The notes under the pieces were generated by a model, which was not told the origin of the DNA, made no database searches, and was given only the letters and a program-made list of their open reading frames with translations. A stretch of 38,572 nt of DNA, taken from a virus. Location of the stretch: the IMG/VR virus record IMGVR_UViG_3300024280_000008, positions 1-38,572 of that record. One strand, written 5' to 3'. The translations under genes were made by a program, and so were the position numbers. Of this stretch, positions 33,124 through 38,572 are shown piece after piece (the first letter of the stretch is position 1; every line of letters begins with the position of its first letter).

Positions 33124-35742
33124 ATGCCACCAGTCAGAATGACACGCGCAGAGTATGAAGCAAAATACGGTGTTAAACCTGTTATTTCAACATCTACACT
33201 TGATACAACCCCAGCGCCTACACGCATGACTCGTAAGGAATATGAGCTGACTTATGGAGTAAAACCAACTGGAATTACGGAACCAACAAAAGCAGGAGTA
33301 GTTCCTAGAGTACTAACTGACATTCCATCAGACATCGCTGAAACTGCAAAAGGATTCGTAGGAGCGGCACGACAGGGAGCGCAAAACATTACCGAAGCAT
33401 TTACCAAAGAGGGTATTACAGTGCCACAAAGAATAGTTGGAGCTACTGTAGCCGCGCCATCTGCCGTAGTAAACATGGGTGCGGAAGCAGTTATTGGAGC
33501 TGGTAAGCTTTTAACTACAGACGAATTTGAAAAAACCATAACAGCCAAAATAGGAGAGGGCGTACAAGGTCTAGCAGAAACAGGACTCGGTAAATTTTTA
33601 GCTGACTCTTACAACAATCTACCTGAAAGCGAAAAGTACACACTTTCTAAAATTATTGCTCCAATCGCTAACGTAGTTACTTCCGCTCCTATAACTAAGG
33701 GTGCTAGCGTAGCCGCTGAGAGTGTTGTTAAGACAGTGCCAGAAATTACAAACACTCTTAAAACAACTACTGAGGCGTTTCGTTCAGGACTAGATAAGCG
33801 TGCATTAGATAAGGTTGTTACTGAACTCGGAAAAGTAGAAGATAAATACAAACCAATCAGAAAAGCTAACCTTTACGACAAGGATATTGTTGGTTCGAGA
33901 ACTCGCATTGCTCAATCGGGCGTATTAGAGAACGCAGTAGATTCGTCAGGTACACTAAGGACTCAAGACGCAGTAGCTGCATACAAGACAATGCCAATTA
34001 CTAAAGATGGACTATCGCTTAAAGATGTAGAAGATGTTGTGCGTAAGAACCTAGAGAACGAAAACAAGACAATTAACTTAAATGAATTACGCCGTGAGCT
34101 AGAAATTGCTCTTACAAATACTAAAGGACTAGAGGGCGCTGACTTAACTGCCGCGTTAAGAGGTGTTGAAAAGGAACTAAAAGGACTAGCAGTTCGTGCA
34201 GACGAACTTGGTAATGTTCCGTTGGTTAAAATTCAAGACGCTAAAATCAGCACGACTTCTAACATTGACTTCAATACACCACCACAAACAAAAACATACC
34301 GAAAAGCTATCGCACGAGTCTATAAAGAAATAATCGAATCTAAGTCAGACTTAGATGTTAAATCTGTAAACCAAGAACTATCAAAGTATTACAGGGATAT
34401 AGAACGCCTAGAGCGACTAGATGGAAGCAAGGTGGAGGGTGGAAGACTTGGGAAATACACAGCCGCACTTACTGGCACAGCTATTGGTATGGGAGCTGGT
34501 TCTGTTGGTGGAGGTTTGGGTTCTGCTGTTGGGGGAATTGTTGGTGGTGAAATTGGTGCTTTGTTAAAAGGTCGCGCAATGTCGCAAACATTCAGGGGTG
34601 GAGGTCAGGGTGTTCCAGAAAACGCCATATTACAACAAGCACAAGCGCGCGCAAACGCAGGAAAGAAAATAAACCTAAAAGTTGCAGATAAAAAAGTCGG
34701 CGCACCTAAGAACGTACCAAAGACTAAAGAGATTCAAAAAATAGAGGGACAAATCAACCGAAACGTAGAAATGCAAAAGAAAGCCATTAAAGCTGGTGAT
34801 TTTGAGTTGGTCGCTAAACTAAAAGAAATCTACGTTGCACTTATCGAAAAACTAAAAGAACAAGTACGCTTTGTACGCGAAAATATCAAAAGCGAAAGCG
34901 GTAAACTAGACCTATTTGGTAGGGGTGATGGTCAAAGTATTCCTCGGAACTTGAGCCAAAGAAATACTACGACACCTGCTAAAACAAATTCCATATCTAA
35001 AACAGTACCAGAAGTAAATCAGAGCGTCAAGGCTGACGTTGAGGATAGTATGGTGACAGAAAACCTAATGCGTCTTGAGGCCACTGATGTTAAAAAAGCA
35101 GAAGACATCGGTCTATTCCTTAGTTTACAACGTAGAGCAGAAAAAGGCCCTCTAAGTGAGGAAGATTTGTTAGATGCACAACGCATCGTAGAAGAGGCAG
35201 ATGGTAAGTTACCAGAAGCTGATATGTCTACTACAAAACTAGCAGACGACACACTCAACAAATCTCTACTAGAAGAAGCTAAGAAGTATAAGAGTGCTGA
35301 AGCAAAGTTGTTAAAGACAGGTTTTGAAAATGAGCCTTATATCAGCGTAAATAAATATGATTCACTAGAAACAGCAAAAAATAAAATGGCTGAACAGTTA
35401 CGCCGAGATTTCCCTGATGGAATTGAGTTATACCATATGACTACAAGTGGTGTAGACCAGAAAATAATAGCATCTGGCTTCAAGGGTGGTAAAGACGTTT
35501 ACTTTTCTGCTGTCCGTCCAGTTGCAGATAGAGTGGACGAGTTTGGTAATGAATTACCAGGTTTAGTAAAAGTTACAATCTCTCCCAAAGATTATAAAAA
35601 GATATTTCCAGACGAATTATCGTTTGAAGGTGAAAATTCACAAGAAACAATTGCAAACTTTTTACGAAATGGTGCAGAGGAAGCCGACATAACAATTCCT
35701 AAATCGTTAGCTAATCAACTTGTACAAGAACAATATAAATAA
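33124..35742 (+). CDS. Internal virion (ejection) protein 2 with C-terminal ART-like domain
   Basis: 872 aa. N-terminus has two copies of RMTR-EYE--YGVKP (5-19 and 34-48). A Gly-rich hydrophobic segment 'TGTAIGMGAGSVGGGLGSAV' near residue 455 could cross a membrane. Coiled-coil regions follow. The last 115 residues, 'IELYHMTTSGVDQKIIASGF', 'DVYFSAVRPVADRV' and 'LVKVTISPKDY', resemble ADP-ribosyltransferase-like/polyvalent-protein domains (H-T opening, yFs...A). Likely injected; effector role is inference. Confidence 0.65.
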   Translation: MPPVRMTRAEYEAKYGVKPVISTSTLDTTPAPTRMTRKEYELTYGVKPTGITEPTKAGVVPRVLTDIPSDIAETAKGFVGAARQGAQNITEAFTKEGITVPQRIVGATVAAPSAVVNMGAEAVIGAGKLLTTDEFEKTITAKIGEGVQGLAETGLGKFLADSYNNLPESEKYTLSKIIAPIANVVTSAPITKGASVAAESVVKTVPEITNTLKTTTEAFRSGLDKRALDKVVTELGKVEDKYKPIRKANLYDKDIVGSRTRIAQSGVLENAVDSSGTLRTQDAVAAYKTMPITKDGLSLKDVEDVVRKNLENENKTINLNELRRELEIALTNTKGLEGADLTAALRGVEKELKGLAVRADELGNVPLVKIQDAKISTTSNIDFNTPPQTKTYRKAIARVYKEIIESKSDLDVKSVNQELSKYYRDIERLERLDGSKVEGGRLGKYTAALTGTAIGMGAGSVGGGLGSAVGGIVGGEIGALLKGRAMSQTFRGGGQGVPENAILQQAQARANAGKKINLKVADKKVGAPKNVPKTKEIQKIEGQINRNVEMQKKAIKAGDFELVAKLKEIYVALIEKLKEQVRFVRENIKSESGKLDLFGRGDGQSIPRNLSQRNTTTPAKTNSISKTVPEVNQSVKADVEDSMVTENLMRLEATDVKKAEDIGLFLSLQRRAEKGPLSEEDLLDAQRIVEEADGKLPEADMSTTKLADDTLNKSLLEEAKKYKSAEAKLLKTGFENEPYISVNKYDSLETAKNKMAEQLRRDFPDGIELYHMTTSGVDQKIIASGFKGGKDVYFSAVRPVADRVDEFGNELPGLVKVTISPKDYKKIFPDELSFEGENSQETIANFLRNGAEEADITIPKSLANQLVQEQYK

Positions 35743-35747
35743 CACAT

Positions 35748-35869
35748 ATTCGGCAACACGGGGTAAGTCTACCAATTTCTCCACCTAAGCTTTACGCCTT
35801 GGGTTGGACTTGAACCAACACGGATTTGTTTCTTGCCCTCTTATTAAGTCCGCCCCTATGCTGTCGAAT
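35748..35869 (-). ncRNA. Permuted tRNA-like RNA, 122 nt
   Basis: Order on the minus strand. Outer helix strand 35869-35853. Arm CGGACTT/AAATCCG (35852-35846, 35827-35821). Perfect T arm GTTGG-TTCAAGT-CCAAC (35819-35803). 7-nt 'acceptor 3' strand' (35802-35796). 5-nt linker. 'Acceptor 5' strand' (35790-35784), pairing 6 of 7 with it. TG, then Leu-type D arm with AAATTGGTAGA loop (35781-35765). Outer strand 35763-35748 pairs with the first strand (CCCC/GGGG, TGTTG/CAGCA, CGAAT/ATTCG). So the T half precedes the D half, and the outer helix replaces the anticodon arm. No anticodon loop is formed. Confidence 0.6.
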
Positions 35870-35878
35870 TTATACTAT
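35869..35878 (-). promoter_or_regulatory. Promoter for the tRNA-like RNA
   Basis: TAGTATAAAT on the minus strand; a start within a few nt of the outer helix is predicted. It overlaps the 3' end of the zinc-finger gene. Confidence 0.45.
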
Positions 35879-36228
35879 TTACCAAATGTATCCTTCATAA
35901 ACATATCGTACAATACGATAGCAGAAAAGTTATCTAGTACGCCCATAGACTTACAATATCTTTTGGCTTCTAACCATAAATCCTCCTTGTCACTATTAGA
36001 TAAATAGTCGTTAAAAGCTTCTGGTAGTTCATCATCTAGCATCTCTGGATTATCCGCCGTAAACACATCATTTAGGTGAGCTTTAAATCCACCTACTGAG
36101 ATGTTATTAGATAATACTTTTTGCAGGTACTCGGCTTCACGCTCTCCAAAAGAATGGGCTTCACATGAAACTAAGCCATCTTCGCTACTAAACACAGTTC
36201 CACACACATTACAATTTCTTTTTTCCAT
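35875..36228 (-). CDS. Zinc-finger hypothetical protein, 117 aa
   Basis: ATG 36228 chosen over an upstream GTG. N-terminus MEKRNCNVCGTVFSSEDGLV then SCEAH (C6-x2-C9, C24, H27) is a C2H2/C2CH-like finger. The rest is helical and acidic (ADNPEMLDDELPEAFNDYL). The only minus gene within the virion region, with its own promoter. Possibly a late regulator; no family recognised. Confidence 0.65.
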   Translation of the reverse strand: MEKRNCNVCGTVFSSEDGLVSCEAHSFGEREAEYLQKVLSNNISVGGFKAHLNDVFTADNPEMLDDELPEAFNDYLSNSDKEDLWLEAKRYCKSMGVLDNFSAIVLYDMFMKDTFGK

Positions 36229-36253
36229 ATCACCAACATACCACACACAATGC

Positions 36254-37342: not shown

Positions 37343-38572
37343 ATGGCCTCGGTAACACATTTAACTAATCAAAGTCAGTTCGTTCAAGCAAACGCTGCCT
37401 TTAATGGTACTAACATCACTGGAACCATTGCTTCTAATGGTATTTCTCTTTCCGTAGCTGCGCCTGGTGCTGGAGGAGGTATCGCTGCTGCCGCAGGTTC
37501 TCAAACACAAACAAACGGTACGCTAGTTTTTTCAAACTCCAACGGCATTACCTTTGGAATGAGTAACAGCTCCGTTATTACTGCGAGTCATAACGGACTT
37601 ACAACCGCGATGGCCTCAAACCGTGGTTCTGATTTCGTACAAGCTACAGCAGTATTTAATGGTACAAACGCTTCTGGAACAATCGCTTCAAACGCTATTT
37701 CAGTATCAGTCGCTGCACCTCTAACTGCCGCAACTGATGTGTATGATGTTGGTTCTGCTGGCTCAACAGGTACAGCAGTCCGCTACGCTCGTGAAGACCA
37801 CGTACACGCTGGAGTAGTTCGTATTCATGCAGGTTCTAACGTCGGTAACACAGCAGGAAACACAGTCGGTAAACACGGTGACTGGGTAGTTGCTGGTTCA
37901 AACAACGTAACCATCTCAGGTTCAACAGGTGGCGCAGGTGTTCACACTGTCTGGGTAAGTGGGCCAACTCTCACTCAATACCTCACGACAGCAATGGCTT
38001 CTAACGCCTCAACACAGTTCGTACAGGCGAACGCTGTTTTCAATGGAACAAACGCAAGCGGTACAATCGCGTCTAATGCAATTTCAATCAGTGTCGCAGC
38101 TCCAGCCGCAGGTGTGGGAATCGTCGCAGGAACACGAACAGCTACCACAGCTAACAACCTTGTCTTCTCTCAAGCCAACGGCATTACTTTCGGACTAGAA
38201 GCTCCAGGTGGTTCTGTAATGACTGCCTCACACAACGGACTTACAACCGCCGCGCAAAGCAACCAAGTAGTAAACAGCCTCAACGGTTCAACTGGCGTAA
38301 TGAGCGTGACAGTCGCTTCAAGCCTCAGCATGTCAACTAACGGCTCGACTATCTCTTTTGGGCTTGCTTCAAACATCACAACGGCATTACAAAGCGCAGG
38401 GGCATACCTAACAACTGCCCGAGCAAGTAACGATGCTATCGGACTTAACTCTGCTTTCACAGCAGGGCCACTTGCGATGACTATTAACTCATCTGGTCTT
38501 TCTCTAAACGCAGCAAGCGCGGCAGGAACTACATCAGGCTTTGGTGGAAACCTTATCTCTGGTTCGATGACC
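37343..38572 (+). CDS. Tail fibre, N-terminal part (continues at base 190)
   Basis: Open to the window end; in-frame with 190-1671 after the overlap. MASVTHLTNQSQFVQANAAF, then alternating modules 'FNGTNASGTIASN-ISVSVAAP' and 'LVFSNSNGITFG...ITASHNGLTTA'. Beta-rich, Ala/Ser/Thr/Asn-rich, no Cys seen. Trimeric fibre shaft by family resemblance. Its repeats could vary in number between phages. Confidence 0.85.
   Translation, partial: MASVTHLTNQSQFVQANAAFNGTNITGTIASNGISLSVAAPGAGGGIAAAAGSQTQTNGTLVFSNSNGITFGMSNSSVITASHNGLTTAMASNRGSDFVQATAVFNGTNASGTIASNAISVSVAAPLTAATDVYDVGSAGSTGTAVRYAREDHVHAGVVRIHAGSNVGNTAGNTVGKHGDWVVAGSNNVTISGSTGGAGVHTVWVSGPTLTQYLTTAMASNASTQFVQANAVFNGTNASGTIASNAISISVAAPAAGVGIVAGTRTATTANNLVFSQANGITFGLEAPGGSVMTASHNGLTTAAQSNQVVNSLNGSTGVMSVTVASSLSMSTNGSTISFGLASNITTALQSAGAYLTTARASNDAIGLNSAFTAGPLAMTINSSGLSLNAASAAGTTSGFGGNLISGSMT
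37379..38105 (+). repeat. Fibre module repeats
   Basis: Three copies of the FVQA...FNGTN...GTIASN.IS.SVAAP module begin near 37379, 37634 and 38018 and are alike in DNA as well as protein. Confidence 0.7.
38384..38572 (+). repeat. Terminal overlap with bases 1-189
   Basis: 189 bp identical to the window start except T at 38446 versus C at 63 (synonymous Leu codon). Indicates a circular assembly, a short terminal repeat, or a fibre-internal repeat. Confidence 0.9.

Follow-up and report, generated by a model that had tools for sequence, protein, structure and literature searches.

A permuted tRNA-Leu-like element in a small phage, and permuted tRNA genes with clamp helices in other phages

Permuted tRNA genes are known from red and green algae and from archaea, with spacers of 1-74 bp (PMC3978253, PMC3218864), and the known examples use bulge-helix-bulge motifs (PMC3978253). 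Permuted tmRNAs give two-piece RNAs (PMC11915505), and the same paper cites a CDS-less tmRNA of phage DS6A, a phage tRNA-like RNA without tag function. Searches of the open-access literature turned up no phage with a permuted tRNA gene. Here, we analyzed a locus in a 38.6-kb virus contig (IMG/VR record IMGVR_UViG_3300024280_000008, 38,572 nucleotides, called the window throughout) for which the original prediction, made from the letters alone, had proposed a tRNA-like RNA with its halves in permuted order and of a kind not known in phages. The latter statement agrees with the open-access literature, but the element is not unique, as other phages carry permuted tRNAs.

The element spans positions 35748-35869 on the minus strand; the original prediction had not stated the strand, and the tRNA-like structure is present on this strand only. 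Read from 35869 to 35748, the minus strand runs ATTCG-A-CAGCA-TA-GGGG-C-(GGACTT..18 nt..AAATCC-GT)-(GTTGG-TTCAAGT-CCAAC)-CCAAGGC-GUAAA-GCTTAGG-TG-(GAG-AAATTGGTAGA-CTT)-A-CCCC-GTGTTGC-CGAAT, so that the variable arm and the T arm come first, the acceptor follows with its 3' strand ahead of spacer and 5' strand, and the D arm stands last. The T arm (35803-35819), seen in the sequence and by the covariance model, was predicted to be perfect and has all five stem pairs (GTTGG/CCAAC) around the TTCAAGT loop. It lies upstream of the Leu-type D arm (GAG-AAATTGGTAGA-CTT, 35765-35781, from the same two sources), which provides G10 A11 G12 / C23 U24 U25 together with A14, G18 and G19. The T-arm half thus precedes the D-arm half on one strand and the acceptor strands face each other: CCAAGGC (3' strand, 35796-35802) and GCTTAGG (5' strand, 35784-35790, from the covariance model and a descriptor) form the hairpin that had been proposed, with 6 of 7 pairs, one of them G-U, across the 5-nt GUAAA (35791-35795), which comprises G73 and the spacer UAAA and encodes no CCA. 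The class-II-like variable arm (GGACTT-18 nt-AAATCC plus GT, 35820-35851; sequence and fold) stands in the right order, as had been claimed, and its hairpin ends in GT directly 5' of the T stem, as in real tRNA-Leu. Going by its letters, this hairpin could alternatively be the anticodon arm of a Leu UAA tRNA with an interruption of about 16 nt, which would leave no variable region. The tertiary signals in the sequence are intact (U8-A14, A15-U48, G18/G19 with U55/C56, U54-A58).

The place of the anticodon stem is occupied by an outer helix, ATTCG-CAGCAT-GGGG / CCCC-GTGTTG-CGAAT, for which the minus-strand fold gives about 15 pairs (14 had been predicted), interrupted by one 1x1 mismatch and one single-nucleotide bulge. 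In this fold its outermost strands, ATTCG (35865-35869) and CGAAT (35748-35752), pair with each other, and beyond an A.A mismatch the clamp extends by 7 further pairs, three of them G-U, between 35871-35877 and 35740-35746 (fold of 35740-35880). Directly inside the clamp lies ACAGCA (35859-35864), at the same position as in a phage class introduced below. GGGG (35853-35856) and CCCC (35760-35763) correspond in sequence and fold to the 3' strand (positions 40-43) and the 5' strand (positions 27-30) of an anticodon stem, but they run straight into the clamp and position 31.39 would be G.A, in line with the earlier remark that no usable anticodon is present. The discriminator is G73, as in 13 of 13 Ser tRNAs, whereas 24 of 25 Leu tRNAs examined have A73; lacking an anticodon loop and carrying G73 in place of A73, the element is unlikely to decode leucine codons. 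Neither ARAGORN nor the Rfam tRNA model recognizes it as an ordinary tRNA-Leu: ARAGORN reports no tRNA in the window, and Rfam matches nothing in the window, nor on 35650-35950 when E values up to 10 are allowed, on which ground a permuted tmRNA was rejected. The alanine identity pair G3.U70 is absent from the acceptor GCUUAGG/CCAAGGC, which has U3.G70.

The element sits between two convergent genes from the ORF list that are only 132 bp apart. A 123-aa ORF with a CxxC motif (35875-36246, minus strand) ends just before it, and an 872-aa ORF that closes the run of structural genes (33124-35742, plus strand), part of which can be aligned to the relative G002, ends at its other edge. A promoter-like box had been placed just upstream of the element; none is found directly there, nor any promoter of the element's own, and the nearest such site (36284-36255) lies before the 123-aa gene, with which the element probably shares a transcript. 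No relatives of the 123-aa ORF were found in IMG/VR, and Pfam gave no match on the whole 872-aa ORF, the C-terminal end of which (GIELYHMTTSGVDQKIIASGFKGGKDVYFSAVRP) resembles a small separate enzyme-type domain. We give a probability of roughly 55% to the reading that the 123-aa transcript ends in a permuted tRNA-Leu-like RNA, encoded by the element, which serves as a non-decoding mimic; its transcription, processing and function we infer as follows. The minus strand would encode a circularly permuted tRNA-Leu-like RNA, probably co-transcribed with the preceding 123-aa gene, and the transcript would fold into a core of T arm, acceptor, D arm and long variable arm, its ends clamped by the outer helix in place of an anticodon arm. 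Excision of the GUAAA spacer by host RNase P and a 3' tRNA nuclease would then leave two RNA pieces held by the clamp and carrying a tRNA-like acceptor end, as in a two-piece tmRNA, and this RNA may act by occupying tRNA-handling proteins.

To score the layout, 20 ordinary phage tRNA-Leu sequences were opened at the anticodon loop and their halves joined in swapped order, and a covariance model (R1) was derived from them with the window element excluded. The check with a permuted-tRNA covariance model that had been suggested recovered the element at 48.8 bits (E 1.4e-10), the sole match in 38.6 kb. Pairs of adjacent ordinary tRNAs of which the second is Leu reach as much as 63 bits with R1 as well, so that the score, taken by itself, is compatible with relics of two tRNAs; it proves tRNA halves in swapped order, not a permuted gene. 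The strongest rival to the mimic reading, which we nevertheless consider less likely, is a relic: a class II tRNA and a tRNA-Leu beside it, possibly a tandem duplicate, would have been stripped of their outer halves, the remaining 3' half and 5' half would look permuted by accident, and the inverted repeat at the flanks would have, or once have had, a role for the convergent genes. What discriminates between a permuted gene and a tandem pair is the acceptor match, the outer helix and the lack of space for complete tRNAs. Acceptor pairing of at least 6/7 arises by chance in 5% of unrelated tRNA pairs and in 15% of Leu-Leu pairs, the latter figure favoring such a relic. Pairing as good as that of the outer helix occurs at 5e-5 of random window positions and in 1.2% of composition-preserving shuffles, and pairing as good as in the part of the clamp beyond GGGG/CCCC at 0.3% and in 2.7%, respectively. 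No ordinary tRNA lies on either side, and complete tRNAs in tandem would not fit into the gap of 132 bp. A relic would thus need acceptor pairing, a match at the anticodon stem and the outer clamp to coincide, of which the last alone has a chance of 0.3-2.7%; the missing halves would have left no trace, the flanks being the ends of two ORFs, and the core signals are undecayed. Clamped permuted tRNAs moreover exist in many phages. On the side of a relic stand, besides the scores of ordinary adjacent pairs, the lack of a homologue and of a selection signal and the ordinary free-energy fold of the minus strand (z -1.0; plus strand z -2.6), in which the cloverleaf lies 6 kcal/mol above the optimum. 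The acceptor with only 6 of 7 pairs and the mismatches in the clamp likewise count against a permuted tRNA.

The relatives of the window phage bear on the same question. Close relatives keeping the element were sought through the terminase, the tail-side proteins and the 872-aa and 123-aa proteins, and none were found. At the corresponding region, no tRNA-like sequence is present in the two longest relatives, G002 (38.1 kb) and G012 (37.8 kb), or in L179, whose tail protein is 60% identical, and BLAST of the element against phages and plasmids returned nothing relevant. The element is hence without a homologue, which counts against the permuted reading because the window copy can show neither covariation nor a sign of selection; the covariation that had been named as a check was found between orthologues of analogous elements in jumbo phages. 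The proposal of a permuted tRNA-like RNA is therefore backed by the layout in the covariance model and by permuted tRNAs in many tRNA-rich phages, and lacks the backing of homologues in relatives. Terminase relatives are present in IMG/VR, others at 33-44% in contigs labeled mostly Bacteroidota, and Shine-Dalgarno-like sites precede few genes of the window phage; together these suggest that the host is probably a bacterium without strong Shine-Dalgarno use. The contig begins and ends with a near-identical direct repeat of about 190 nt (1-189 and 38384-38572, one mismatch seen), which falls within a repetitive tail-fibre gene, and the genome is probably circular or terminally repeated. An attachment-site remnant was rejected, as no integrase was found among the window genes scanned.

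A pattern scan of IMG/VR for a T-loop followed by a Leu D-loop yielded mostly ordinary tandem tRNAs, and among the matches listed there were loci without an ordinary tRNA that had a 7/7 acceptor, a short spacer and long perfect outer helices. Two descriptors were applied, the first demanding a T arm with 5/5 pairs, an acceptor with at least 6/7, U8, R9 and a D stem outside ARAGORN tRNAs, the second a clamp followed by CAGC[AC], a T arm and an acceptor. Together they gave at least about 27 permuted tRNA elements in at least 14 other IMG/VR phage records, the records among the matches listed being L016, L101, L112, L121, L124, L142, L147, L150, L218, L246, L251, L253, L277 and L283. The listed elements include several isotypes and both class I and class II tRNAs. 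Letting the 5' half of the L246, L251 and L218 elements stop behind C27 G28 and their 3' half begin with G29 restores a perfect 5-bp anticodon stem, and the anticodons would then read UGA, UGU and UGU, respectively; as read from the letters, the break lies in the anticodon loop in L101 and others and after the anticodon arm in L253. Three further candidates were rejected: L110 is an ordinary Ser and Leu pair, L022 a tRNA 3' exon behind an apparent group I intron, and L023 a Leu tRNA with a long insert. In the last (L023:3150-3330), which ARAGORN did not find, the tRNA-Leu halves stand in normal order (GTAGTCAGG ... CCTGACTAC) around an insert of more than 100 nt, possibly an unusual intron or a tmRNA-like RNA. 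A group I permuted intron-exon arrangement was rejected as well, as Rfam at gathering thresholds finds only tRNA in seven candidate loci and the window flanks are ORF ends.

Most of the listed elements share a cassette built around a clamp P1 of 7-10 bp, the sequence of which differs from element to element: ACAGCAA comes immediately after the 5' strand of P1, an A-rich stretch immediately precedes P1', and (U)GUU often follows. In an alignment of 12 cassette members (A3), 9 of 9 P1 pairs have changed on both sides, which was reached by 0 of 500 shuffles, the covariation of P1 and acceptor being partly built in since the descriptor required part of it. A model built from these 12 members (R2) finds further ones, and at E up to 1e-5 it finds none in the window phage and none in five tRNA-rich control phages. 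Other clamp-side motifs, common to different isotypes within one genome, were seen in L112, L142 and L124, and several motif classes therefore seem to exist. Permuted tRNAs with other motifs lie at L112 (951, 3984, 10386), L142 (4002, 4230), L124 (55, 467) and L016 (7169, 9033, 9202), examples of such motifs being GAATGCYG..GACTACAT with CCTGT and CGAT..GGGTTATCG.

One BLAST match led to Erwinia phage Kaldavass (366 kb), in which two elements recognized by R2 fall between the annotated features of the GenBank record. Orthologues are present in XbC2, GAP32, BF and CBB, likewise without tRNA annotation; in the sections of the CBB paper that give 33 tRNAs and two RNA ligases, no permuted tRNA is mentioned. 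Across the orthologues the clamp of the Leu element changes from AAGAATTCA/TGAATTCTT to AAGAATCTA/TAGATTCTT and TGGAATTCA/TGAATTCCA, and its anticodon stem from GCTAT/ATAGC to GCTGT/ACAGC. Over the whole permuted cloverleaf and clamp, 94.8% of cells are paired compared to 34-42% with slid partners, 7 pairs have changed on both sides and the covariation score is reached by 0 of 500 shuffles. This test is not circular, because the orthologues were found by sequence similarity (BLAST). In the same phages, P1-CAGCAA...P1' cassettes also surround very short inserts (L319:2195-2256, L319:351-408, L340:1707-1768 and L342:2197-2261; Kaldavass, XbC2, BF) that look like lone anticodon arms, Asn GUU (TCAACTGTTAATTGA) and Lys UUU-like (TCAAACTTTTACTTTGA), and could possibly be anticodon stem-loop decoys or circular mini-RNAs. 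At L319:2116-2170 and L342:567-620 the cassette encloses a small hairpin, TTCT-CGGATAT-AGAA and TCAT-TGGATAT-ATGA, whose stem differs between the two phages and still pairs.

The RNA ligase family PF09414 was found in 6 of 7 records above 40 kb with permuted tRNAs, and in Kaldavass, compared to 3 of 8 controls; the genes lie in L101, L112, L121, L142, L147, L253 and PQ464595.1, with up to three per genome. RtcB is absent from all records tested. The window element might be imagined as a true member of the P1-ACAGCAA class, in which the clamp would excise the segment enclosed by the P1 strands, a ligase would seal this RNA into a circular precursor and the precursor would mature into a working tRNA, the anticodon loop of the window copy having been lost or corresponding to the UAA-like hairpin at the variable arm. 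Its ACAGCA, which stands immediately behind ATTCG of the clamp just as it does in class members, and the resemblance of the hairpin CGGACTTAA..AAATCCG to a Leu UAA anticodon arm speak for this, but a P1 of at least 5 bp with CAGCA is expected by chance in 1.5-4%, and R2 gives the element only 23.1 bits, aligning the core and neither clamp nor motif (other members 47-100 bits). Class members have a perfect clamp of at least 7 bp with an A-rich stretch before P1', whereas the clamp of the window element consists of 5 bp, a mismatch and 7 bp with three G-U, GUGUUGC stands before P1' and the RAGR start is missing. As the window phage also has neither PF09414 nor RtcB, we regard membership in this narrow class as improbable. 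That the locus is just a structured 3' end common to the two convergent genes (a bidirectional terminator or stabilizer) with an accidental tRNA resemblance is very improbable, as the tRNA core at E 1e-10 and the lack of any T-run or terminator-like site at the element outweigh its place between convergent stops, the inverted repeat reaching both stop codons and the plus-strand fold at z -2.6.

The phage class of permuted tRNAs is a larger result than the window element. Permuted tRNA genes with covarying clamps and a motif of their own mean that tRNA genes are missed by standard annotation, as in the GenBank records of the cultured jumbo phages, and they imply an undescribed RNA joining or two-piece mechanism. 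We tentatively propose that phages make tRNAs or tRNA-like RNAs from permuted genes in their own way, in that clamp and short motif might join the ends, a phage RNA ligase or a ribozyme-like step might close or trim the product, and RNase P and RNase Z might open the acceptor; the window element could then be a stripped-down, ligase-free version giving an anticodon-less two-piece mimic. Such genes are also relevant to the question of how phage tRNAs stay functional in the face of host anticodon nucleases, and the cultured hosts of the jumbo phages make the question accessible to direct testing.

Compared to the algal and archaeal permuted tRNA genes, the window element has the same 3' half upstream of the 5' half, facing acceptor strands and termini that meet at the anticodon side. 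Unlike them, it has no anticodon loop after joining and no bulge-helix-bulge, and its host is probably bacterial; the splicing endonuclease that recognizes bulge-helix-bulge motifs, and through which the algal and archaeal genes become functional, is not known from bacteria. The outer helix contains one 1x1 mismatch and one 1-nt bulge, and no 3-nt bulges around a 4-bp helix (definition in PMC3978253). With permuted tmRNA the element shares a permuted tRNA-like domain, a long helix in place of the anticodon arm and the expected processing into two paired pieces, but it differs by its Leu-type D arm with a full D stem, its long variable arm and the lack of a tag region. The CDS-less tmRNA of DS6A is likewise phage-encoded and without tag function and offers a precedent for a mimic, although it is a tmRNA relative and not a permuted tRNA-Leu. 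Unlike the P1-ACAGCAA tRNAs and their phages, the window element has a shorter and imperfect clamp, no A-rich stretch and no anticodon loop, and the window phage is small and carries no RNA ligase. Like the clamp-helix permuted tRNAs of phages, it combines permuted halves, a perfect T arm, facing acceptors, an outer clamp and ACAGCA after the clamp, and in the wide sense of permuted halves, facing acceptor strands and a clamp it belongs to this widespread set.
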